Positions 2,936 to 50,712 of a stretch of 64,000 bases of DNA are shown here, one piece after another. The translations under genes were made by a program, and so were the position numbers. This DNA comes from Haematomicrobium sanguinis DSM 21259 (GTDB lineage: Bacteria; Actinomycetota; Actinomycetes; Actinomycetales; Micrococcaceae). Location: positions 124,001 through 188,000 of the forward strand of contig NZ_JIAG01000006.1 in NCBI RefSeq assembly GCF_000688395.1, in the 5' to 3' direction. The notes beneath the pieces were generated by a model that had not been told where the DNA came from, did no database searches, and saw nothing but the letters and a program-made list of their open reading frames with translations. Position 1 is the first letter of the stretch. Every line of letters starts with the position of its first letter.

Positions 2936-4438
2936 ATGGCAATGTTCACCGGGCCCCTTGAGGCCTTTACCGGGTTCGAAGCGGGAGACGTCGAATGGTT
3001 GCACCTCTTGGTGGGGGATTGGCAACTGGTTGCGGACCTCGCGTTCGCCGATCTCGTGCTGTGGTTTCCGGCCGCAGAGGGCGGATTCGTCGCGTTGGCG
3101 CACGTGCGTCCCTCGACGGGGCTCACCGTGTTTCACGCCGACCCGGTTGGCGAACCCATTCCGCCAGCGCTCAAGGACATTGTGCAGAAGGCCTGGGATA
3201 CTAAGTCTCTGGTGACGCAGGAGGACGTTTCGAGCGATACCGATGACGGCGTACGCATCGAAGCTGTCCCCATGGTGCGTGGATCGAGGCCGTTGGCGGT
3301 CATTACCAGCCACTTCGACTTGTCCTCGGCGCGCATGCCCTCACGGCTCGAACTCACCTATCGGCAGTCGGCCCGCGATCTGCTCGCCATGGGCGCCCTT
3401 GGGCTCTGGCCGGATTTCGCGACCCCGACCGGCGGGAAACGCGGCGCCCCGCGCGTGGGCGATGGCTTCGTGCGCTTGGACGTGGAGGGCAAGGTTCTCT
3501 ACGCGAGCCCCAACGCTGTCTCCGCTTTCCGCCGGCTCGGCACCGAGGGCGCGCTAGAGGGCAATTTCTTGGCCGAGATCACGGCAGGGCTGTTGAAGGA
3601 TCGGCGGCTCATCGACGAAACGCTGCCGCTGGTACTCACCGGCCGCATGCCGTGGCGCACCGAAGTGGAATCGCGGGGAGTCGCACTGACGCTGCGCGCG
3701 ATTCCGTTGCGCAATACGCAGGGCCGTTTCGGTTCGCTCGTACTGTGCCGAGATGTCTCGGAACTGCGTCGGCGCGAAAAGGAACTGGTGAGCAAGGACG
3801 CCACCATCCGCGAAATCCATCACCGAGTCAAGAACAACTTACAAACGGTTGCCGCGCTGTTGCGTATGCAGTCGCGAAGAATGAATTCGGATGAGGGGCG
3901 GATGGGCTTGGAGCAGGCGATGCGCCGCGTCTCCACGATCGCGCTCGTGCACGAAACGCTTTCCCAGGGCCTGACCCAAGAGGTCGAATTCGACGAGATG
4001 ATCGAGCGCCAATTCCACCTCAGCGCCGAAGTCGCTTCCAACGCGACCAACGTCCGCACCCGCATGGACGGCTCGTTCGGGGACATCCCGAGCGATTTGG
4101 CGACCCCGCTCGCCCTCGTCATTAATGAACTGGTGACCAACTCGGTGGAGCATGGTTTGCCGGACGGGGGAGAAGTGCGGCTCGTCGCGGACCGCACCAT
4201 CAACGAAGCCGGAGAGACGATCCTCACCGTCCAGGTCATCGACAACGGCGTTGGGATGGACAACGAGCCCGGCCGCGAAGGCCTTGGCCTGCAAATTGTG
4301 CGCACGCTCGTCACGAGCGAACTCTCTGGAACTATACAGTGGGCCCCGGCCAAAAACGGGGGCACCGCGGTCACCCTCGTCATCCCGCTCAAAACCCCCA
4401 AATCGACTGTGCAGAACACGCACGCGACACGCCGTTAA
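2936..4438 (+). CDS. pdtaS: Sensor histidine kinase, PdtaS-like (HisKA_2 family)
   Basis: Cytosolic sensor kinase of 500 residues. Residues about 1-150 fit the GAF-like N-terminal domain and about 170-280 a PAS domain. The HisKA_2 phospho-acceptor box EIHHRVKNNLQT has its His pair at 295-296. The ATPase domain shows ALVINELVTNSVEHG (N box, about 392-406) and VIDNGVGMD (about 434-442). No membrane segment is seen. In mycobacteria PdtaS signals to the RNA-binding antiterminator PdtaR and lies beside whiB1; here whiB1 is also the convergent neighbour, which supports the orthology. No response regulator is in the window. The start is the first ATG after the gdh stop; a second ATG two codons later is equally possible. 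The last 13 codons overlap the left arm of an inverted repeat. Confidence 0.9.
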   Translation: MAMFTGPLEAFTGFEAGDVEWLHLLVGDWQLVADLAFADLVLWFPAAEGGFVALAHVRPSTGLTVFHADPVGEPIPPALKDIVQKAWDTKSLVTQEDVSSDTDDGVRIEAVPMVRGSRPLAVITSHFDLSSARMPSRLELTYRQSARDLLAMGALGLWPDFATPTGGKRGAPRVGDGFVRLDVEGKVLYASPNAVSAFRRLGTEGALEGNFLAEITAGLLKDRRLIDETLPLVLTGRMPWRTEVESRGVALTLRAIPLRNTQGRFGSLVLCRDVSELRRREKELVSKDATIREIHHRVKNNLQTVAALLRMQSRRMNSDEGRMGLEQAMRRVSTIALVHETLSQGLTQEVEFDEMIERQFHLSAEVASNATNVRTRMDGSFGDIPSDLATPLALVINELVTNSVEHGLPDGGEVRLVADRTINEAGETILTVQVIDNGVGMDNEPGREGLGLQIVRTLVTSELSGTIQWAPAKNGGTAVTLVIPLKTPKSTVQNTHATRR

Positions 4439-4465
4439 AGCGTGCATTTTCTGCACAGTCGATTT
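4400..4465. repeat. 17-bp perfect inverted repeat overlapping the kinase gene end
   Basis: The arms at 4400-4416 and 4449-4465 are perfect complements over 17 bp. The left arm codes for the last residues of the kinase. The 32-base loop holds a smaller GCACGC/GCGTGC pairing and the word GCGACACGCCG, which recurs in the arms of the hairpin at 4621. No U-tract follows, so it is not a classical intrinsic terminator, but it lies where kinase transcription should end. Confidence 0.8.
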
Positions 4466-4620: not shown

Positions 4621-4680
4621 TCTATGTAGCGCGACACGCCGAGGAATCCGCGAAAACCTCGGCGTGTCGCGCTACATAGA
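4621..4680. repeat. 60-bp hairpin element, family A copy 1
   Basis: Perfect 24-bp arms (4621-4644 and 4657-4680) enclose a 12-base loop. The arms begin TCTATGTAGCGCGACACG. The same 60-bp element, in the opposite orientation judging by its loop, occurs at 50653-50712. Identical arms at two sites 46 kb apart make this a dispersed repeat and not only a local terminator. Confidence 0.9.
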
Positions 4681-34807: not shown

Positions 34808-34810
34808 CAC

Positions 34811-34894
34811 CGCCCTCGTTTCGCATCCCCGTAACGCATTTTGAGAGCCGTACGCGGGGATGAGAACGCGGTACGGGGATGCGAAACGCGGGCG
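34811..34894. terminator. 22-bp inverted repeat with internal repeats after the M23 gene
   Basis: The arms at 34811-34832 and 34873-34894 pair over 22 bp with one mismatch. The word CGGGGATG occurs again inside the loop, so other pairings are possible. It sits just after the M23 stop and before the smpB promoter, which suggests a terminator or processing element. There is no T-tract. Confidence 0.6.
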
Positions 34895-34922
34895 GGAGTG
34901 GTTGAGTAGCGCCAATCAGTGC

Positions 34923-35524: not shown

Positions 35525-35888
35525 GGGGATGACTGGTTTCGACGATGTGAGTCGCGTCAGGGGAAGCGGGCCGAGGATGCAGAATTATCTCGTAAACGCT
35601 TTCTGCAAAACTATAAGTGCCGAATCTAAGCGCACTGACTTCGCTCTCGCTGCCTAAGTAGCGAGACAGTCCGTCAGCCCGGGTTTGCCTTTGACCCGGT
35701 CACTGGCGTCAGCTAGAAGGCCACTGCTTGGTGATGATGTCGTGGCGTCACCAGGGACTTTTACACGGCTGGGCTCGGCGATCACTTGTTTGCATGATGA
35801 TCGGAGCCGAGTAGACCTAGCGCAAACTGCGCCCGGAGAAGCCCTGACAAAGCAACATCGGACCGGGGTTCGATTCCCCGCATCTCCA
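35525..35888 (+). ncRNA. ssrA: Transfer-messenger RNA (tmRNA)
   Basis: Rescues ribosomes stalled on broken mRNAs and tags the peptide for degradation. The 5' end GGGGATGACTGGTTTCGAC is the family hallmark. Its first seven bases pair with CATCTCC at 35881-35887 to form the acceptor stem, followed by an unpaired A; the CCA end is not encoded. The T arm reads CGGGGTTCGATTCCCCG. The tag frame runs from GCC at 35619 to the TAA at 35655-35657 and encodes AESKRTDFALAA, with the usual ALAA degron. It lies directly after smpB. Confidence 0.97.
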
Positions 35889-35893
35889 CAGTA

Positions 35894-35952: not shown

Positions 35953-36030
35953 CGATTCCGTGGCAGTTTTCGTGGCGAAACTGCCACGGAATCGATTATG
36001 TGGCAGTTTGAGCCCCACCGCTGCCACATA
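35953..36030. repeat. Multi-unit palindromic element, family B copy 1
   Basis: Three inverted units of the word GTGGCAGTTT. The first stem pairs 35953-35969 with 35978-35994 (17 bp perfect). The middle palindrome spans 35978-36009 around AATCGATT. The last stem pairs TATGTGGCAG (35997-36006) with CTGCCACATA (36021-36030). Alternative pairings exclude each other. The reverse complement of 35978-36009 recurs at 42372-42403 with one difference. Confidence 0.85.
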
Positions 36031-36059
36031 AAATCTGCGGTGGCAGAGCACGCAGGGCG

Positions 36060-36065
36060 TAAAGT
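36060..36065 (+). promoter_or_regulatory. -10 element of a leaderless transcript
   Basis: TAAAGT ends six bases before the ATG of the DHA2-type transporter gene, with no ribosome site between. Confidence 0.5.
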
Positions 36066-36071
36066 GCCACT

Positions 36072-37448
36072 ATGACCGCCTTGCAACGCCGTGTACTCAT
36101 CGTCGCGATCCTCGCCTCTTTCATGTCAATCCTGGACGGCTCGGTGGTCAATTTGGCGTTGCCCGCCATGACACGGGAACTCGGCGGCGGCCTCAGCTCA
36201 CAACAGTGGATCGTAGACGCATACCTCTTGACCCTTGGCTCCCTGATTCTCTTGGCCGGCTCGCTTTCGGACCAATTCGGTCGGGAACGGATCATGCGAT
36301 GGGGGCTGATTGGCTTCGGCATCACCTCGGTCGCCTGCGGGCTCGCGCAAAGCGACCTGCAACTGATCATCGCCCGCGCGATTCAAGGCATCGCCGGTGC
36401 ACTCCTCGTCCCCAGTTCCCTGGCCATGATCATGGCGGCATTTAGCGGCAAGGCGCAGGGCCGGGCGATCGGGCAGTGGACCGCCGCTACCGGCGTGGCC
36501 GTCGTCGCGTCCCCGCTCATTGGTGGACTCGCCGTTGACTTCCTGTCCTGGCGGGTGATCTTTTTCATTAACATCATCCCGATCCTGATCGCCCTGCCGT
36601 TTCTCGCGAAGATCCCCAACCTCGAAGAGAGCAAAAGCGCCCGGCACATCGACTTTGTTGGCGCGCTACTGGGCGTGATCGGGCTCGGTGGCAGCGTCTT
36701 TGCGTTGATCGAAGCACCCCGGTTGGGACTTTCCGATCCGAGCGTGTGGGGACCACTCGCCGTCGGACTTCTGGCACTGGTGGCGTTCATTTGGTGGGAA
36801 AAGCGCGCTAAGGCACCAATGATGCCGCTCGGGCTGTTCTCGATCCGCAACTTCTGGGTGGGGAACCTCTCCACCTTCTTGACCTATGGCGCGCTCAGTC
36901 TAGGCACGCTTGCGCTTTCGCTATACCTGCAGCAGGTGGTGGGGCTCTCCGCGACGATTACCGGGCTCGCGACGATCCCGAGCACCATAATCATGCTGAC
37001 GCTGTCCACCTATTTCGGTGACTTTGCCGGCCGGATTGGACCGCGGATCTTTATGGGGCTGGGCCCGATCATCGCCGGTGTGGGTTTCCTACTCATGCTG
37101 ACCGTGAGCCGGGACTTCAATTATTGGTGGCAGGTCCTGCCGGGGATTTTGGTCTTTGGGCTCGGGCTCACGATGACGGTGGCGCCGCTAACCGCGGGCA
37201 TTCTAGGTGCGGTGCCGACGGCCAACGCGGGTGTCGGGTCGGCGATTAATAACGCAATCTCGCGCATTGCCGGGCTCATTACGGTGGCGCTCATGGGTGT
37301 GATTGGCGGCAGCACGCTCGGGCTGGATGCGCTGCACCGGCTGGTGCTCGCCACCGGGCTGATGATGATCGCGGGCGGCGTCATTTCGCTAATCGGGATC
37401 CAGAATCCGCGGCCGGATAACGCAGTGGCGGTCTCGGCGAGCAAGTAG
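36072..37448 (+). CDS. MFS transporter, DHA2 (14-helix) drug-efflux type
   Basis: Inner-membrane proton-coupled exporter of 458 residues. Helix 1 contains ILDGSVVNLALPAM, the DHA2 motif D1 region. The loop between helices 2 and 3 has GSLSDQFGRERIM (MFS motif A). Helix 5 has the antiporter-type GQWTAATGVAVVASPLIGG. About 14 hydrophobic segments are visible. The substrate is unknown. The ATG is six bases after a -10 hexamer and the gene follows the family B palindromes. Confidence 0.9.
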   Translation: MTALQRRVLIVAILASFMSILDGSVVNLALPAMTRELGGGLSSQQWIVDAYLLTLGSLILLAGSLSDQFGRERIMRWGLIGFGITSVACGLAQSDLQLIIARAIQGIAGALLVPSSLAMIMAAFSGKAQGRAIGQWTAATGVAVVASPLIGGLAVDFLSWRVIFFINIIPILIALPFLAKIPNLEESKSARHIDFVGALLGVIGLGGSVFALIEAPRLGLSDPSVWGPLAVGLLALVAFIWWEKRAKAPMMPLGLFSIRNFWVGNLSTFLTYGALSLGTLALSLYLQQVVGLSATITGLATIPSTIIMLTLSTYFGDFAGRIGPRIFMGLGPIIAGVGFLLMLTVSRDFNYWWQVLPGILVFGLGLTMTVAPLTAGILGAVPTANAGVGSAINNAISRIAGLITVALMGVIGGSTLGLDALHRLVLATGLMMIAGGVISLIGIQNPRPDNAVAVSASK

Positions 37449-37455
37449 GGCCTCC

Positions 37456-37532
37456 GCGCCGGGCACCCGAGCCCGCCCCGCGCCTGGCACCCGGGGGCCC
37501 CGCTCCCCGCGCCGGGCACCCGGGGGCCCCGC
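37456..37532. repeat. Very GC-rich imperfect direct repeats
   Basis: The word GCGCCGGGCACCC (one copy with a T) begins at 37456, 37480 and 37509. Copies two and three continue into GGGGGCCCCG. The stretch is almost entirely G and C and lies between two MFS genes, just after the first stop. It may be a degraded repeat or read-through region; no coding sense was found. Confidence 0.6.
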
Positions 37533-37593
37533 CGCCCCGTCCGGCGCGCCTCGTCCCCGATTGGCAATTGCGAATCACCGGCGCATTTCCGGG

Positions 37594-37599
37594 TAGGAT
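37594..37599 (+). promoter_or_regulatory. -10 element of a leaderless transcript
   Basis: TAGGAT ends six bases before the GTG at 37606, which favours that GTG over the one at 37603. Confidence 0.5.
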
Positions 37600-37605
37600 G
37601 ACGTG

Positions 37606-38967
37606 GTGTCCACCACACCCCCAGATCCCGCGCACCCGGTCGAGCCGGGCCCGCACGAAGGCCCGCGCACAGGCATCCTCCGCGGCCAAGGCATCCTCCG
37701 CCGCACCGGCCGCGCCATCCTGCCCCACAACCTCGGCCCGCAATTCGGCCGCCTCTGGGGAAGCGCGATCGCCTCCAACCTCGGCGACGGCATCATGATC
37801 GCCGCCGGTCCGCTCATTGTCGCCGCGGTGACCAATAACAACCCGCTTCTGGTGGGCCTTGCCGCCGCGATTCAACGCATCCCGTGGCTCATTTTCGGCC
37901 TGTTTGCCGGCGTGGTCTCGGACCGCATCAACCGCAAGACGATCATCATCGCGATGGCCGCCGTGCGCGTGCTGGTGCTCAGCTACCTCGCCGTCACGAT
38001 CCTGACCGGCACCGTCAACGTCCCCATCTTGATGAGCGTCCTCTTCCTCGTTGGCACGGCGGAAACCTTCGGCGACACCGCAAACTCCGCGGTCCTGCCG
38101 AGCATCGTCCCCAAGTCGGCACTCGGCACCGCGAACTCGCGTATCTTCGGCACCGCCATGCTGCTCAACCAACTTGCCGGCCCCGTCCTTGGCGGGTTCC
38201 TCTTCCTCGCGGGCATGGCCTTCCCGGTCGGCATCCAAGCGCTGTGCCTGGTGATCGCGATCGCGTTCATCGCCCGCATCCGCCTCCCCGGGCATGAGCC
38301 GCGCACCGCGAAAACCGGCATCCACCACGACCTCAAGGAAGGCATCGTGTGGATCTGGCACCACCCGCCGGTGCGCACCCTGATCCTGTTGATCACCGTG
38401 TTTAACCTCAGTTTCGGCGCGTCCTTTGGCATGTTGGTGCTGTACGCGCAAGAGTGGCTTGGCATCGGCGAGGCGGGATACGCGATCCTGCTCGCGATAT
38501 CCGCGGCGGGCGGATTCGTCGGCTCGCTCATCTTCCCCGCACTGGAGCGCCGTTTCAGCTACGCCTTCCTGCTGCGTACCGGACTGATTATCGAAACCTT
38601 CATGCACCTGATACTGGTTCTGACCCGCAGCCCGATTGTCGCCGGAGCGATCCTGTTCCTGTTCGGCATCCACGCGATCGTCTGGGGCAGTACCTCGGCC
38701 ACGATCCGCCAACGCGCCGTCCCGCTTAAGCTCATGGGCCGCGTCTCCAGCGTCCACATGATCGGGGTCACCGGGACGCTCGCCATCGGCCAAATCATGG
38801 GCGGCTGGTTCGCCGGGATCGGCAACATCACCACACCCTACTATGTGGCGTTTGGCTTGGCCGGACTCGCGACAATCCTGGTGTGGGGGCAAATTGCGAG
38901 CGTCGCGCACGCGGGTGAAATCTCAGAACACCCCGAGGATGAGCCGGGCAAACCCCAGCCCGGCTAA
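37606..38967 (+). CDS. MFS transporter, EntS/MefA-like
   Basis: A 453-residue major facilitator with a Pro- and Gly-rich cytoplasmic head of about 45 residues and twelve membrane segments. GVVSDRINRKTIIIAM is motif A after helix 2. AETFGDTANSAVLPSIVP and the NQLAGPVLGGFLF region fit the MFS_3 family (enterobactin exporter and macrolide efflux type). The substrate is not known. It converges on crcB, overlapping its end by 45 bases. Confidence 0.85.
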   Translation: MSTTPPDPAHPVEPGPHEGPRTGILRGQGILRRTGRAILPHNLGPQFGRLWGSAIASNLGDGIMIAAGPLIVAAVTNNNPLLVGLAAAIQRIPWLIFGLFAGVVSDRINRKTIIIAMAAVRVLVLSYLAVTILTGTVNVPILMSVLFLVGTAETFGDTANSAVLPSIVPKSALGTANSRIFGTAMLLNQLAGPVLGGFLFLAGMAFPVGIQALCLVIAIAFIARIRLPGHEPRTAKTGIHHDLKEGIVWIWHHPPVRTLILLITVFNLSFGASFGMLVLYAQEWLGIGEAGYAILLAISAAGGFVGSLIFPALERRFSYAFLLRTGLIIETFMHLILVLTRSPIVAGAILFLFGIHAIVWGSTSATIRQRAVPLKLMGRVSSVHMIGVTGTLAIGQIMGGWFAGIGNITTPYYVAFGLAGLATILVWGQIASVAHAGEISEHPEDEPGKPQPG

Positions 38968-39327
38968 AGCCCCTGCAACGCACAGGACGAACATGCCGAG
39001 CGCGTGGACGAGGGCCGCCACCGGGCGGCGCAATTGCAGGAGCCGCAGGGTCTCGTAGCTCGCAGTGGAGAAGGTCGTGTAGCCGCCCAAAAATCCGGTG
39101 CCCACCATAGCGAAGTACGACGGCGTGTCCCCGACTCCCAGCGCACCGGACCAGAGTGCCAGTCCGGTGAGTAGCCCTAGGGCCAACGACCCAGAAACAT
39201 TGATGGTCCAGGTGGCCCAGGGGAAATTGTCGCCCACTCTCGACTTGATCAGGCCGTCCAGCATGAAGCGAGCACCGGCACCGAGGCCGCCGCAGAGGGC
39301 AATAAGAAGTAAGAGGCCGAAGTTCAC
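38923..39327 (-). CDS. crcB: Fluoride ion channel CrcB/Fluc, subunit 1
   Basis: Small four-helix fluoride channel, 134 residues, with GGLGAGARFMLDG near the N-terminus and GFLGGYTTFSTASYE, the conserved FTTFST-type pore motif. It overlaps the upstream crcB gene by four bases. Two adjacent non-identical crcB genes usually make a dual-topology pair or heterodimer. No fluoride riboswitch motif was recognised nearby. Confidence 0.92.
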   Translation of the reverse strand: MNFGLLLLIALCGGLGAGARFMLDGLIKSRVGDNFPWATWTINVSGSLALGLLTGLALWSGALGVGDTPSYFAMVGTGFLGGYTTFSTASYETLRLLQLRRPVAALVHALGMFVLCVAGALAGLGFARLILGVF

Positions 39328-39857
39328 TGTGAGTCACCGCCCTCGTCAGGCAAGGAGCCAGGTGAGGCATCAGTTGAGGTACTAGCTGCACCGTTGTCTC
39401 GGGCTCCGCGGGACGGGACGAGCGAACCCAGCCACAATCCAACCCCGCTCGCTGCGGCGCCACCGAGGAGGGTCGCCACGGCATAGACGGCGAACCCGCC
39501 AATGTTTCCGGCAATCAAGAGTTCGGAGTTTTCGGTAGCAAGAGCGCTATACGTGGTGAACCCGCCAAGCAGCCCGGTGCCGAGGGTGAGCCGTATTGCT
39601 TGGCGCCGCCCGCGGTCGGGTCCGCGGCGGGCGAGCGCTTCTAGGAGGAAGCCCAAGGCACATGCCCCCAGAATGTTGACGGCAAATGTCCCGGCAGGAA
39701 AGGGGAGCGTGGTACCGGCCCACAGCCCGACGAGCTCGCGCAACAGGGTGCCCAGGGTACCGCCCGCGATGACAAGTGCCACCAGCTTTGGATGAAAGTG
39801 AACCGGACGGCGCGGCCCGAGGCTTTCGCTATCCGGGTCTACTGGGACATGCGTCAT
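39324..39857 (-). CDS. crcB: Fluoride ion channel CrcB/Fluc, subunit 2
   Basis: A 177-residue homologue with a 30-residue N-terminal extension, GGTLGTLLRELVGL, and the pore motif GLLGGFTTYSALATE. A Ser/Ala/Gly-rich soluble tail of about 30 residues, unusual for the family, ends the protein. It overlaps the methyltransferase gene upstream and the other crcB downstream by four bases each, so the three form one operon. Confidence 0.9.
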   Translation of the reverse strand: MTHVPVDPDSESLGPRRPVHFHPKLVALVIAGGTLGTLLRELVGLWAGTTLPFPAGTFAVNILGACALGFLLEALARRGPDRGRRQAIRLTLGTGLLGGFTTYSALATENSELLIAGNIGGFAVYAVATLLGGAAASGVGLWLGSLVPSRGARDNGAASTSTDASPGSLPDEGGDSQ

Positions 39858-40657
39858 GGCGAGCTGTCTCTCTTGCGTGGGCTTTTGCCCGGGGTGCAGA
39901 AGGCGCGGTATGCCTGCGTCACATAGTGGAGCTCGACGATCTCGCCGGGCCGGTGGCCCAAATGCTCAAAGAGGTACCAGTGAAGGTTCGCGAGGACCTT
40001 GGCGCGAGTGGCTTCCGTCGCCTTGAGAAAGTAGCTCCGGGTTTGGGCAAGCTCAATCAGCTCCTCGGCCGCGAGTTCTTGTTGCCAGTGCACTTCGCGG
40101 GTTTCAATCGGCGTGAACCCGGTGCCGAGCGGTGGACGGAAGTTGTGTCGAAGCACATCCCCGGCGTGCATGATGCGGGAAAGACGGTGCACCCAGGGCA
40201 CGGTGACGTCGAGTTGGTTCCAGATCAGGCCCAGGGTGCCGCCGGGGCGTAGCGCCGATCGGATGCGTGCGCTGGCCGCCTCGACATCGAACCAGTGCCA
40301 GGCTTGCGCCACGAGTACCGCGTCCAGTGCACCGCCGGTCTGGGTGACCCAACTCTCGTCTTCGGCGTTCGCTTCGATGGTGCGCACCCCGGGGAGTTTC
40401 GCCTCGACGTGGGCCAACATGTCTGCCGAAGGGTCTACGGCGAAAACGTCCGTGACTCTGTGCACCAGTTGTTCGGTGAGTTTCCCAGTCCCTGCGCCCA
40501 GGTCGACAATGCGCCGGGCATCCTCCGGGAGCAACCAGTCCACAGCCTCGGCAGGGTAGCCGGGACGCAACCGCTCATAACGCTCGCCGCCGGTGTTGAA
40601 CGCGCTAGAAAAATGGGTCCGCTGCGCATCATCGAGTTTGGGGCCCCGATTGTGCAC
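39854..40657 (-). CDS. Class I SAM-dependent methyltransferase
   Basis: A 267-residue protein with the SAM-binding motif VDLGAGTGKLTEQL (motif I), VDPSADML (motif II), and WHWFDVEAASARIRSALRPGG. The HFSSAFNTGGERYERLRPGYP head is typical of UbiE-like methyltransferases of unknown substrate. The start is GTG with GAGAGGA upstream. Its operon partners are the crcB pair, which gives no clear clue to function. Confidence 0.85.
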   Translation of the reverse strand: MHNRGPKLDDAQRTHFSSAFNTGGERYERLRPGYPAEAVDWLLPEDARRIVDLGAGTGKLTEQLVHRVTDVFAVDPSADMLAHVEAKLPGVRTIEANAEDESWVTQTGGALDAVLVAQAWHWFDVEAASARIRSALRPGGTLGLIWNQLDVTVPWVHRLSRIMHAGDVLRHNFRPPLGTGFTPIETREVHWQQELAAEELIELAQTRSYFLKATEATRAKVLANLHWYLFEHLGHRPGEIVELHYVTQAYRAFCTPGKSPRKRDSSP

Positions 40658-40762
40658 AGCGATTCCTCTCCACGTCGATCCGGTGTCCAGCGACCGGCAG
40701 TCGGTTATTACCTTAGCCCTGTTCTCCCGGGTTACGCCGCTGACCGAAAGCCGTGGCGGGCA

Positions 40763-42127
40763 CTAGTCACTCGAACACGGCGCCGCACCGGCGGTCCCCG
40801 GGCGGTTCGGCGCCCACGCCGGGAACTCCCGAGTATCCTGAGCCGGAACCCAGCGGCCCTCATCCACCACATAGTCAAACCGCAACCCGCGCTCCACCAG
40901 CGCCGTCACACCCGTAACCAGCCGGTCCACGTGGGCGCTCGTGCTTCCGAGACCAAAGCTCGCCCTTAAGGCCCCGGACGGAAGCCCGAGCTTATTCAGG
41001 AGCGGGTGCGCGCAGAATTTCCCATCACGCAACCCCACGCCGAACTCGGCGGACAAGAATGCGGCGACCAATCCGCCGTCGTACCCCTTGACCGAAAAGT
41101 TGACGACTCCAATGGCATCGATTGAGTCCTCGAAGATGCGGTGAATCTGGACGCCGGCGATCGCGTTGAGACCGTCGATTAGGCGCGCGCGCAACGCCTC
41201 TTCGTGGGCGTGCCAGGCATGCGGATCGAGCGCCTCGATGGCCTCAATGGCGGCGGTGAGGGTTGCGGCTCCCAGGACATTGGGGCTCCCAGCCTCGTGG
41301 CGCGCCGGGCTCACCGCCCAAGTGACCGAATCCGGCTTGACCCGGACGACGGCACCGCCGCCCGCGAGATACGGGGGAGCGGCGTCCAGCCAGTCGGCAG
41401 GACCCACCAGGAGCCCGGCACCGAAGGGGGCGTACAGCTTGTGGCCGGAGAGCGCGAGGTAATCGATTCCCGCGCCCACCATGTCGATCCGGCGGTGCGG
41501 AGCAAGCTGCGCCGCGTCCACGGCGAGCCGAGCGCCGTGGCGGTGCGCGATCGCGGCAAAGCGGGCTAGGGGGAGGATTTCACCGGTGACATTGGACGCG
41601 CCGGTGATCGCCACGAGAGAGACGGAGCCCTCCGTGAGCGCGGCCTCCACGTTGGCGAGCGTCTGCTCAAGAGTGGGCGCGGAGAGCACCGAGCGGTGTG
41701 CACGGGCCTGCCACGGCAGCAGATTGGCGTGATGTTCCAGGTCCAGGTAGAGCACCTCGGTGCCCTCCGGCACGGCGCTTGCCAGCAGGTTCAGCGCGTC
41801 GGTGGTGTTGCGCGTGACGATGACCTGCGCATCTTCCGGTGCATTGAGGAATCGGCGCGCGGCAATGCGGGTGCCCTCATAGAGCGATGTGGATACTTGC
41901 GAGGCGTACCCGGCGCCGCGGTGGACGCTCGCGTAGTACGGGGTGACTTCGGCGAGCCGTTTTTGCACCGACTCCAGGATCGGCGCGCTGGCCGCGTAGT
42001 CGAGATTGGCGTACGGCACCGTGTTGCCGTCAAGAAGCGGGGTCTCCAGGTCCCCGCCCACAACGGGCAGGAGCGCCTGGATGGTGGTTGTTTCGGCCAG
42101 AGTTTCCCCGGGCAATGTCGCTGTCAT
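40763..42127 (-). CDS. Cysteine desulfurase-like class V aminotransferase
   Basis: PLP enzyme of 454 residues. Key residues are His134 (EHHAN), Asp204 (VDAAQ), the PLP lysine Lys230 (SGHKLYAPFG), and Cys372 (GKFCAHPLL) at the position of the persulfide cysteine of SufS. It probably releases sulfur from cysteine, but other class V lyase activities are possible. An N-terminal extension of about 30 residues and a Pro/Ala-rich C-terminal tail are present. No suf or isc gene is adjacent. A SAM-IV riboswitch in the leader indicates control by S-adenosylmethionine, which links it to sulfur amino-acid balance. Confidence 0.85.
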   Translation of the reverse strand: MTATLPGETLAETTTIQALLPVVGGDLETPLLDGNTVPYANLDYAASAPILESVQKRLAEVTPYYASVHRGAGYASQVSTSLYEGTRIAARRFLNAPEDAQVIVTRNTTDALNLLASAVPEGTEVLYLDLEHHANLLPWQARAHRSVLSAPTLEQTLANVEAALTEGSVSLVAITGASNVTGEILPLARFAAIAHRHGARLAVDAAQLAPHRRIDMVGAGIDYLALSGHKLYAPFGAGLLVGPADWLDAAPPYLAGGGAVVRVKPDSVTWAVSPARHEAGSPNVLGAATLTAAIEAIEALDPHAWHAHEEALRARLIDGLNAIAGVQIHRIFEDSIDAIGVVNFSVKGYDGGLVAAFLSAEFGVGLRDGKFCAHPLLNKLGLPSGALRASFGLGSTSAHVDRLVTGVTALVERGLRFDYVVDEGRWVPAQDTREFPAWAPNRPGTAGAAPCSSD

Positions 42128-42189
42128 GGTGTCCTCTCAGATGGAGGGCGTCCTCGCAAAAGCAGTGCCGCGTTGGGCTAGCTGTGCCG

Positions 42190-42316
42190 TCAAGGTGCGC
42201 CGCGCTTGCCACCGGGAGTGTGCCCGGCGGCCAGGTCTTCACCCGGGGCACCCCACCGCGTGTGGAGGGTTGCCGTCCAGCAAACCGGGGTTTAGCGCTG
42301 GAACTCGTGACCTCAG
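42190..42316 (-). promoter_or_regulatory. SAM-IV riboswitch
   Basis: Read on the minus strand the leader contains, in order, GGTCACGAGTTCCAGCGC, CCCCGGTTTGCTGG, CGGCAACCCTCCA, CGCGGTGGGGTGCCCCGGGT, GAAGACC and later GGTGGCAAGCGCGG. These are the conserved blocks of the actinobacterial SAM-IV aptamer. P1 pairs GGTC (42309-42312) with GACC (42234-42237). About 60 bases separate it from the ATG, ending in a GAGAGGA ribosome site, so control of translation is plausible. Confidence 0.9.
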
Positions 42317-42351
42317 TGCGAGTCTAGCGAAGGCGGCGCGAACATGACGTT

Positions 42352-42426
42352 TATGTGACATTTCACCCGTGAAACTGCCACATAATCGATTCCGTGGCAC
42401 TTTCGGCCCACAAACTGCCACATAAA
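42352..42426. repeat. Multi-unit palindromic element, family B copy 2
   Basis: Contains 42372-42403, which equals the reverse complement of 35978-36009 except for one base in the last unit. AAACTGCCACATAAA follows at 42412-42426, and a diverged unit (TATGTGACATTT) lies at 42352-42363. It sits between the hisN stop and the SAM-IV leader of the next gene on the same strand. Confidence 0.85.
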
Positions 42427-42439
42427 CTCGGCGCGCGGC

Positions 42440-43252
42440 TCAGGGAAAGAGCCGCTGCTCCGGCGAATTGAGCATCGTGAGTACGGAATCATGCAGAATC
42501 CCATTGGTTGCCACCGCGTTCCCGCCAAAGGGGCCAGCGTTCCCGTCCAACGACGTGAACCGCCCGCCAGCCTCGGTCACGATCGGCACCAGCGCCGCCA
42601 TGTCATAAACCTCGAGTTCCGGTTCACACGCGATGTCCACGGCGCCCTCGGCCACCAGGCAGTAGGACCAAAAATCCCCGTACGCACGGGATCGCCAGGT
42701 CGTCTCATCCAAGGTCAAAAACGGCCCCAACATTTCGCGCTCGCGCCAGCCGTCCAGGCTGGAGTAACTCAGCGACGCATCCGCCAACGTCCCCACCGAA
42801 GACACCTGCAGCCGAGACGCGCTCGCCAAAGACTTTCCGGTATACGCACCCGAACCCTTCGCGGCCCACCACCGTTTACCCAGCGCAGGCGCACTCACCA
42901 CGCCGAGAACCATCTCATTGCCCTCGCGCAGCCCGATCAGCGTCGCCCACACCGGCACGCCGCGCACAAAATTCTTGGTCCCGTCAATCGGGTCGATGAT
43001 CCATTCCCGGTTGCCGCTGCCGGTCGCACCAAATTCTTCACCGAGAATCGCGTCCCGCGGCCGCGACCGCCCCAGCTGCGACCGAATCATCTCTTCGGCG
43101 CGACGATCGGCGTCGCTAACCGGTGTCAGGTCCGGTTTGGTCTCCACCACCAGGTCTTGGGCTTTGAACCGGTCCATCGTGTGCGCGTCGACCGAGTCCG
43201 CGATCACGTGTGCGAGTCGGAGGTCATCGGTGTACGCGCTAGCCAGATTCAT
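42440..43252 (-). CDS. hisN: Histidinol-phosphatase, inositol monophosphatase family
   Basis: Magnesium-dependent phosphatase of 270 residues, probably the histidinol-phosphate phosphatase of histidine synthesis. It has ETKPDLTPVSDADR, GEEFG (Glu72-Glu73) and IDPIDGTKNFVRG with the metal-binding Asp87 and Asp90. The combination is typical for actinobacterial HisN; a related inositol or sugar phosphatase is the alternative. It lies next to rsgA and aroA as in other actinobacteria. The ATG is six bases after a TAGATT -10 element. Confidence 0.88.
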   Translation of the reverse strand: MNLASAYTDDLRLAHVIADSVDAHTMDRFKAQDLVVETKPDLTPVSDADRRAEEMIRSQLGRSRPRDAILGEEFGATGSGNREWIIDPIDGTKNFVRGVPVWATLIGLREGNEMVLGVVSAPALGKRWWAAKGSGAYTGKSLASASRLQVSSVGTLADASLSYSSLDGWREREMLGPFLTLDETTWRSRAYGDFWSYCLVAEGAVDIACEPELEVYDMAALVPIVTEAGGRFTSLDGNAGPFGGNAVATNGILHDSVLTMLNSPEQRLFP

Positions 43253-47514: not shown

Positions 47515-47588
47515 GCAAATTTCATGGCCTCCCGTGCGTTTCATGACCTTGGGAGGCCATGAAACGTATGTAAGGCCATGAAATTTGC
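47515..47588. repeat. Nested multi-unit inverted repeat after rsrA
   Basis: The outer arms 47515-47530 and 47573-47588 pair perfectly over 16 bp. Inside, ATGGCCTCCC (47524-47533) can pair with GGGAGGCCAT (47551-47560), and CGTTTCATG (47537-47545) with 47558-47566. The word GGCCATGAAA or its complement appears four times, so the element can fold in more than one way. It begins immediately after the rsrA stop. Confidence 0.8.
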
Positions 47589-47596
47589 GGGGGAGA

Positions 47597-47646
47597 ACGA
47601 CGGCGCGTGGTGACCTTTCGTGCGAAAGGTCACCACGCGCCGTCGT
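47597..47646. terminator. Perfect 24-bp stem with a two-base loop
   Basis: The arms 47597-47620 and 47623-47646 are perfect complements. The element lies eight bases before the convergent bL37 stop and is probably a two-way terminator for rsrA and bL37. The short tract ACTTTTCT follows on the plus strand. The arm word ACGACGGCG is shared with 4553-4619. Confidence 0.8.
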
Positions 47647-47653
47647 ACTTTTC

Positions 47654-50652: not shown

Positions 50653-50712
50653 TCTATGTAGCGCGACACGCCGAGGTTTTCGCGCGGGCCTCGGCGTGTC
50701 GCGCTACATAGA
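50653..50712. repeat. 60-bp hairpin element, family A copy 2
   Basis: Perfect 24-bp arms (50653-50676 and 50689-50712), identical to those at 4621-4680. The 12-base loop resembles the reverse complement of the other loop (TTTTCGCG shared). The right arm contains the stop codon of the SGNH-like gene (50704-50706). Confidence 0.9.

Follow-up and report, generated by a model that had tools for sequence, protein, structure and literature searches.

The 64,000-nucleotide stretch of Haematomicrobium sanguinis DSM 21259 analysed here (the window) holds two copies of an 80-bp palindromic element that occurs ten times in the genome, and two of the other copies bracket a gene for a putative nuclease whose homologs in other genera are frequently bracketed by repeats as well. 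The anatomy and copy number of the element, the constraint on its words, the bracketing across genera and the extra copies of bracket repeats, found mostly in the home genome only, are observations. They lead to the reading, to which we give an even chance, that the dispersed repeats are the cognate DNA sites of a nuclease/regulator gene and spread or persist alongside it.

The ten copies align with a single one-base gap, present in one of them, and each consists of four half-sites (GTGGCASTTT-like; roughly TTnnGTGGCASTTT) in alternating orientation around an invariant centre, AATCGATT. The cores start at positions 7, 29, 47 and 69 in nine of the ten copies, the last core starting at 68 in the second window copy, and the core centres are spaced 22, 18 and 22 bp apart, or about two helical turns each. 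A model search of the 2.93-Mb genome, a 27-contig draft, in which 150 of the 1902 candidates from a first look were scored, identified the ten full-length copies (E <= 1.2e-19 in the better orientation) and nothing partial at E values up to 10. The two window sites are therefore not the sole occurrences, in agreement with the sequence-only reading that had proposed a dispersed family. The bare 10-base word is not over-represented genome-wide (20 matches, and likewise 20 for the reversed word), and in the window it is matched 8 times at one mismatch or fewer versus 3.57 expected, a count reached in 4 of 100 shuffles; what stands out is the 80-bp arrangement rather than the bare 10-mer.

The bracketed gene, C12:63840-64682 (280 amino acids; locus L108), belongs to a different contig from the window and lies between a copy at C12:63771-63848, which overlaps its stop codon, and a copy at C12:64744-64821, located 61 bp before its start. 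Its product matches the AbiEi_4 winged helix (PF13338, E 2.9e-8, 34.1 bits versus a cut-off of 25) and, below the Pfam cut-off, the MTES_1575 nuclease domain (E 7.8e-4), and probably combines this winged helix with a Vsr-like nuclease domain in one DNA-binding, DNA-cutting protein. Three further paralogs match both models, with MTES_1575 at E 3.7e-8 to 0.0022 and AbiEi_4 above cut-off in one of the three. A profile built from the four paralogs finds six homologs in the own genome; of the 148 genomes searched, own included, 60 have homologs. The Vsr-type residues, whose catalytic roles we presume, are conserved across 113 homologs (E184 99%, D211 99%, E221 95%, D223 95%, H228 94% and D237 94%). 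No homologs of the nuclease were found in phages or viral contigs, and no solved structure matched it by sequence. Each of the four full paralogs has a bracket word unrelated to those of the others, namely the element described above (L108), AACTTCCGTGAGCGC-based repeats (L110), CGGTTGGTGAGCATAAGG palindromes (L111) and AGACCCATAAC-GTTATGGGTCT palindromes (L107).

Bracketing was scored by ungapped comparison (+1/-2, in either orientation) of the 300 bp preceding a gene with a stretch made up of its last 20 bases and the following 300 bp. Of 116 matched places 113 were tested; the other three were two places at contig starts and a second piece of a gene that had been included. An initial control of 300 pairs scored at most 15, after which 16 was chosen as the cut-off. 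Scores of at least 16 were obtained for 56 of the 113 homologs and of at least 20 for 38, compared with a score of at least 16 in 1 of 1000 mismatched flank pairs (scoring 18), 0 of 107 comparisons of upstream with outer-downstream sequence and 3 of 107 comparisons of outer flanks. The bracket repeats are direct in 42 cases and inverted in 14, and bracketed homologs occur in 34 of the 60 genomes and 23 of 31 genera, with a bracketed share of 6/6 in the own genome, 27/66 in the rest of the family and 23/41 in the rest of the order. Among other genes of the own genome, taken from the window and a 400-kb sample, 4 of 346 reached 16 and 2 of 346 reached 20, the latter two being an acyl-CoA thioesterase and a DJ-1-family gene. 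A Fisher test of 6/6 versus 4/346 gives 8e-11, although genes that share a genus or a genome do not count as independent cases. Of the six own homologs L149, with an uncertain start, has the lowest score, 17. At three loci, L183 (G054), L133 (G017) and L197 (G430), bracket repeats of 85-99 bp are near-identical on both sides of the nuclease gene, which suggests recent insertion or homogenisation.

Copies of bracket repeats beyond the brackets themselves were sought for 13 repeats from five genomes, in samples of 464, 400, 200, 140 and 60 kb. Such copies were present in the home sample for 9 of the 13 repeats, and in 1 of 52 off-home cells. Clear further home copies were identified for the L107 palindrome (three), the L110 repeat (one) and, in another genome, the L203 (three) and L209 (one) repeats; the upstream L203 repeat is an inverted pair of TTCACAACTCCTCAT words, and the solo copies of that genome share this layout. 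The reversed query for the 80-bp element gave one match too.

A further feature, near some of the nuclease genes, is the word TTATCCACA, which we take to be a DnaA box. Within 250 bp upstream, 20 of the 113 homologs have it, the median distance to the start being 60 nt; in three control stretches, none of the 113 has it. All six own homologs carry the perfect word upstream (L108, L110, L111 and L107 among them), as do 16 of 56 bracketed versus 4 of 57 unbracketed genes. One reading of this word is replication-linked expression of the nuclease genes.

As judged with a simple home-made gene finder, all ten copies of the element are intergenic, and three of them reach into a gene end by about a dozen bases at most. 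Some are located between convergent or between divergent genes, others directly behind a gene or 36-80 nt in front of one; about half abut a gene end or come shortly after it, and the adjoining genes have no evident common function. Two copies, C13:94896-94974 and C13:95209-95287 (L025), are separated by 313 bp, lie upstream of a serine hydroxymethyltransferase gene and are identical at 77 of 80 positions. Their outer flanks are unrelated, the likeness stopping about a dozen bases or less beyond the element, which can therefore be duplicated as a unit; this pair is the clearest sign of element-sized duplication. No nuclease remnants were found within 1.5 kb of solo copies at seven loci.

Every copy is able to fold strongly as RNA, and alternative folds are present. 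The sequence-only reading had also claimed that several folds exclude one another; alternative folds do exist, and the weight given to them is not upheld, as neither the two-hairpin fold nor the nested long fold has a paired share or covariation higher than that of shuffled partners. Excluding the near-identical pair, identity between copies is 95% in the cores, 100% in the centre and 65% in the STTT tails, and the two 8-nt loops are 44% identical versus 37% expected from base make-up. Changes in the stems are one-sided. The combination of conserved words and spacing, free loops and absent covariation points to an element that would act through DNA recognition rather than as an RNA switch. An RNA switch or a terminator acting by structure was rejected, covariation being absent in both folds, and the sequence-only view that the multi-unit design differs from a simple terminator is borne out.

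Outside this genome, model searches returned no convincing copy of the element in 58 relatives and, under stricter filters, no true copy in 394 other genomes of the family. Weak matches (two at E 0.03-0.09 among the 58, and four genomes at E 0.0005-0.006 among the 394) looked on reading unlike the element. Phage records contained no match and plasmid records a single 21-base match at E 0.9, the central pattern was absent from viral contigs, and the six matches to the central pattern in named genomes are near the estimated chance level, none having the surrounding element; these plasmid, phage, viral and named-genome collections possibly lack the organism of this window. A phage, virus or plasmid origin was rejected on these results, together with the lack of nuclease homologs in phages and viral contigs and with the sole plasmid homolog, a distant one, being unbracketed.

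The two window copies, their half-sites and their neighbours are as follows, the strand given for the element copies being the better-scoring orientation of a nearly symmetric sequence.

35954..36033, minus strand: copy 1 of the 80-bp element (match of sequence model R1 at C6:159955-160032, which is window 35955-36032)
35960..35969, plus strand: half-site GTGGCAGTTT of copy 1, by word search
35978..35987, minus strand: half-site GTGGCAGTTT of copy 1, by word search
36000..36009, plus strand: half-site GTGGCAGTTT of copy 1, by word search
36018..36027 (about), minus strand: degenerate half-site GTGGCAGCGG of copy 1, read from the sequence
42349..42428, minus strand: copy 2 of the 80-bp element (match of model R1 at C6:166350-166427), with one base deleted in one half-site
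42355..42363 (about), plus strand: degenerate half-site GTGACATTT of copy 2, with a one-base deletion, read from the sequence
42372..42381, minus strand: half-site GTGGCAGTTT of copy 2, by word search
42394..42403, plus strand: half-site GTGGCACTTT of copy 2, with one mismatch, by word search
42412..42421, minus strand: half-site GTGGCAGTTT of copy 2, by word search
35525..35889, plus strand: tmRNA gene, upstream neighbour of copy 1, outside the element
42197..42312, minus strand: SAM-IV riboswitch, neighbour of copy 2, outside the element
42440-43252: inositol-monophosphatase-family (hisN-like) gene, neighbour of copy 2

The description of these sites made from the letters was accurate. The 32-mer at 35978-36009, in which 2 of 16 pairs are mismatched, reappears reverse-complemented at 42372-42403 with exactly one change, and the extra inverted copies of the word noted at both sites amount to three clear half-sites and one degenerate fourth at each. 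The neighbours had also been named correctly, with the tmRNA before copy 1 and the hisN-like gene and SAM-IV leader around copy 2; copy 1 is placed about 66 nt from the 3' side of the tmRNA and about 36 nt before the start of an MFS gene.

Other repeat families are present in the window. A palindrome family based on TCTATGTAGCGCGACACGCCGAGG, with a 12-nt variable loop, is found at 4621-4680 and 50653-50712; its 18-base word occurs 37 times on each strand of the genome at two mismatches or fewer, and only as single near-matches in the 394 other family genomes. Fourteen of the 15 sites read lie within about 11 nt of a stop codon and 10 lie between convergent genes, a terminator-like placement. 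A third family, at 47515-47588, comprises four TTTCATGGCCT-type words in a palindrome of roughly 74 bp with variable spacers; the word has 21 exact matches in the genome, and seven sites were read. Further long inverted repeats of the window are located at 47594-47649, 4400-4465 and 34810-34895, and the latter two are similar to the bracket repeats of the acyl-CoA thioesterase gene (L247) and the DJ-1-family gene (L241), both situated elsewhere in the genome, which thus contains several such families.

From the association between nuclease gene and repeat, which is observed, we infer binding, cleavage and spread along the following lines. The AbiEi-type winged helix would bind the four half-sites, akin to Rv2827c on its four inverted repeats, and the upstream copy would serve as the operator of the nuclease gene itself. 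Directed by this binding, the nuclease would nick or cut at copies of the element, and repair would then copy the repeats, and occasionally the gene with both of them, into new intergenic sites. The finding of copies with intact words only would be due to recognition of these words by the protein. This scheme would make the window copies solo ones, with only secondary effects, if any, on the tmRNA, hisN or other neighbours.

A wider proposal is put forward tentatively, as somewhat short of an even chance: the AbiEi-winged-helix/Vsr-like nucleases of Actinomycetes may form an enzyme class, widespread and so far undescribed, that maintains or spreads repeats. Each gene would travel with its own word, have two bracketing copies and seed solo copies between genes, as a non-HUH counterpart of RAYT/REPIN in which one protein both recognises the repeat and cuts DNA, its timing possibly coupled to replication by the DnaA-box-like site. 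If true, a second and unrelated family of repeat-carrying enzymes, bracketed in 23 of the 31 genera that have it, could account for many of the orphan repeats between genes of Actinomycetes; matched pairs of protein and word would become available for reading DNA recognition by AbiEi-type winged helices, and it could be tested whether some labelled antitoxins or defence nucleases are selfish or repeat-managing elements.

Several observations weigh against a nuclease that spreads or maintains its own repeats. MTES_1575 falls below cut-off in all four paralogs (best 33.8 versus 38.2 bits; all at E <= 0.1), AbiEi_4 exceeds it in only two of the four scanned, and two of the six own-genome homologs, both matching the profile only in part, have no AbiEi_4 match. 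At the cut-off used, 57 of the 113 homologs are unbracketed, as is the one distant named homolog, which a plasmid of Tsukamurella tyrosinosolvens carries. Strong self-inversion was found in only 16 of 56 bracketing regions versus 4 of 55 controls, many brackets thus being direct repeats that form no clear palindrome, and genes of other kinds can be bracketed too, as the thioesterase and DJ-1-family genes are by other palindrome families of this genome. Regarding the extra copies, both home matches of the 80-bp element are the window's own two copies, which the own-genome sample includes; the home matches for L111, L148 and L197 are short or weak, and no extra copy was found for 4 of the 13 repeats (three in samples of 60-200 kb and one in the 400-kb sample). 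Finally, no genome of the same genus turned up among the relatives drawn.

The main rival is an operator array without mobility, in which the AbiEi-type protein would be a sequence-specific regulator with the four half-sites as its operators, and the ten copies would constitute a small regulon with autoregulation while the nuclease acts elsewhere, for example on invading DNA. The fixed spacing, conserved half-sites and free loops are what such an array would have, one copy lies just upstream of the nuclease gene and others a few dozen bases upstream of other genes, and AbiEi relatives autoregulate via inverted repeats, according to PMC7319586. However, copies are also found behind the gene, between convergent genes and across stop codons, beside genes that share no evident function. 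Operators would explain upstream copies, and alone explain neither the element-sized duplication nor the downstream brackets in half of the homologs. We consider this rival unlikely.

The frequent placement of the intergenic copies at or near gene ends and their strong folding as RNA would also suit REP-like 3'-end or terminator hairpins, the link to the nuclease being a by-product of where repeats settle. This is improbable in view of the missing covariation, the one-sided stem changes, the random loops, the copies in 5' and divergent regions, and the bracketing of the nuclease family, which is far above that of the 346 other genes of the genome. Still less probable, and in our view very doubtful, are miniature remnants of an ordinary insertion sequence (IS) or miniature inverted-repeat transposable element (MITE) mobilised by a transposase unrelated to the bracketed gene: the element is short, dispersed, built from inverted repeats and duplicated as a unit, but no Y1 transposase was found in the draft genome, nor any half copies or decayed remnants of the element, and it would be left unexplained why six words bracket the six nuclease homologs. 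An IstB profile gave four partial matches inside longer frames (best E 1.1e-9, two at or over cut-off), so that an IS21 relative keeps a small probability. An origin from IS21 ends, suggested by a resemblance, was set aside, nothing like a word-bearing IS end being seen among the 31 listed places of a 14-base word at two mismatches or fewer.

Among known systems, the REP/RAYT pair consists of dispersed bacterial palindromes with a well-known partner enzyme. In PMC3733652 these are described as short intergenic inverted-repeat elements, often paired and common at gene ends, which are restricted to a species, can form several families in one genome and flank a single-copy partner gene, and the REP definition given there includes a GTAG or CGTC tag at one end. 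REP/REPIN elements with RAYT are resembled here by ten short intergenic palindromic copies and a flanked partner gene, and differ from them in the four half-sites at fixed spacing and in the winged-helix/Vsr-like nuclease as partner. The tag is absent on both strands in all ten copies of the element, and no match to the Y1 (HUH) RAYT transposase (PF01797) was found at E <= 0.001 in the 27-contig draft; membership in RAYT/REP is ruled out by the missing Y1_Tnp and the missing tag.

The AbiEi antitoxins (S. agalactiae AbiEi and Rv2827c) share with the present system an AbiEi-type winged helix and inverted-repeat arrays upstream of the gene, and Rv2827c of M. tuberculosis, an AbiEi relative, is reported in PMC7319586 to bind four inverted repeats upstream of its own gene. 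Here, in contrast, the C-terminal part matches a nuclease domain, and the repeats also occur downstream and at eight other loci. No DUF1814 (AbiEii) toxin gene is adjacent at L108, where the neighbours are shikimate dehydrogenase (Shikimate_DH) and alpha-L-fucosidase (Alpha_L_fucos) genes, and the gene is thus not part of an AbiE toxin-antitoxin pair (type IV). MTES_1575 is described in PMC3710099 as a Vsr-family restriction endonuclease joined to winged helices. As in Vsr-fold nucleases of this type and in EDxHD homing endonucleases, Vsr-type residues are conserved in the protein described here, which differs from these in being a small two-domain protein without helicase, HEPN or transglutaminase parts, in having no intron or intein and in being encoded between repeats on both sides of its gene. 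Homing by a free-standing nuclease gene is a further analogy. The open-access literature outside bioRxiv, covered mostly through titles and the starts of abstracts, yielded no paper linking AbiEi or DUF559 nucleases to flanking repeats. Repeats that flank the gene of a dedicated partner enzyme are of a kind already known, and the enzyme here is unrelated to RAYT.

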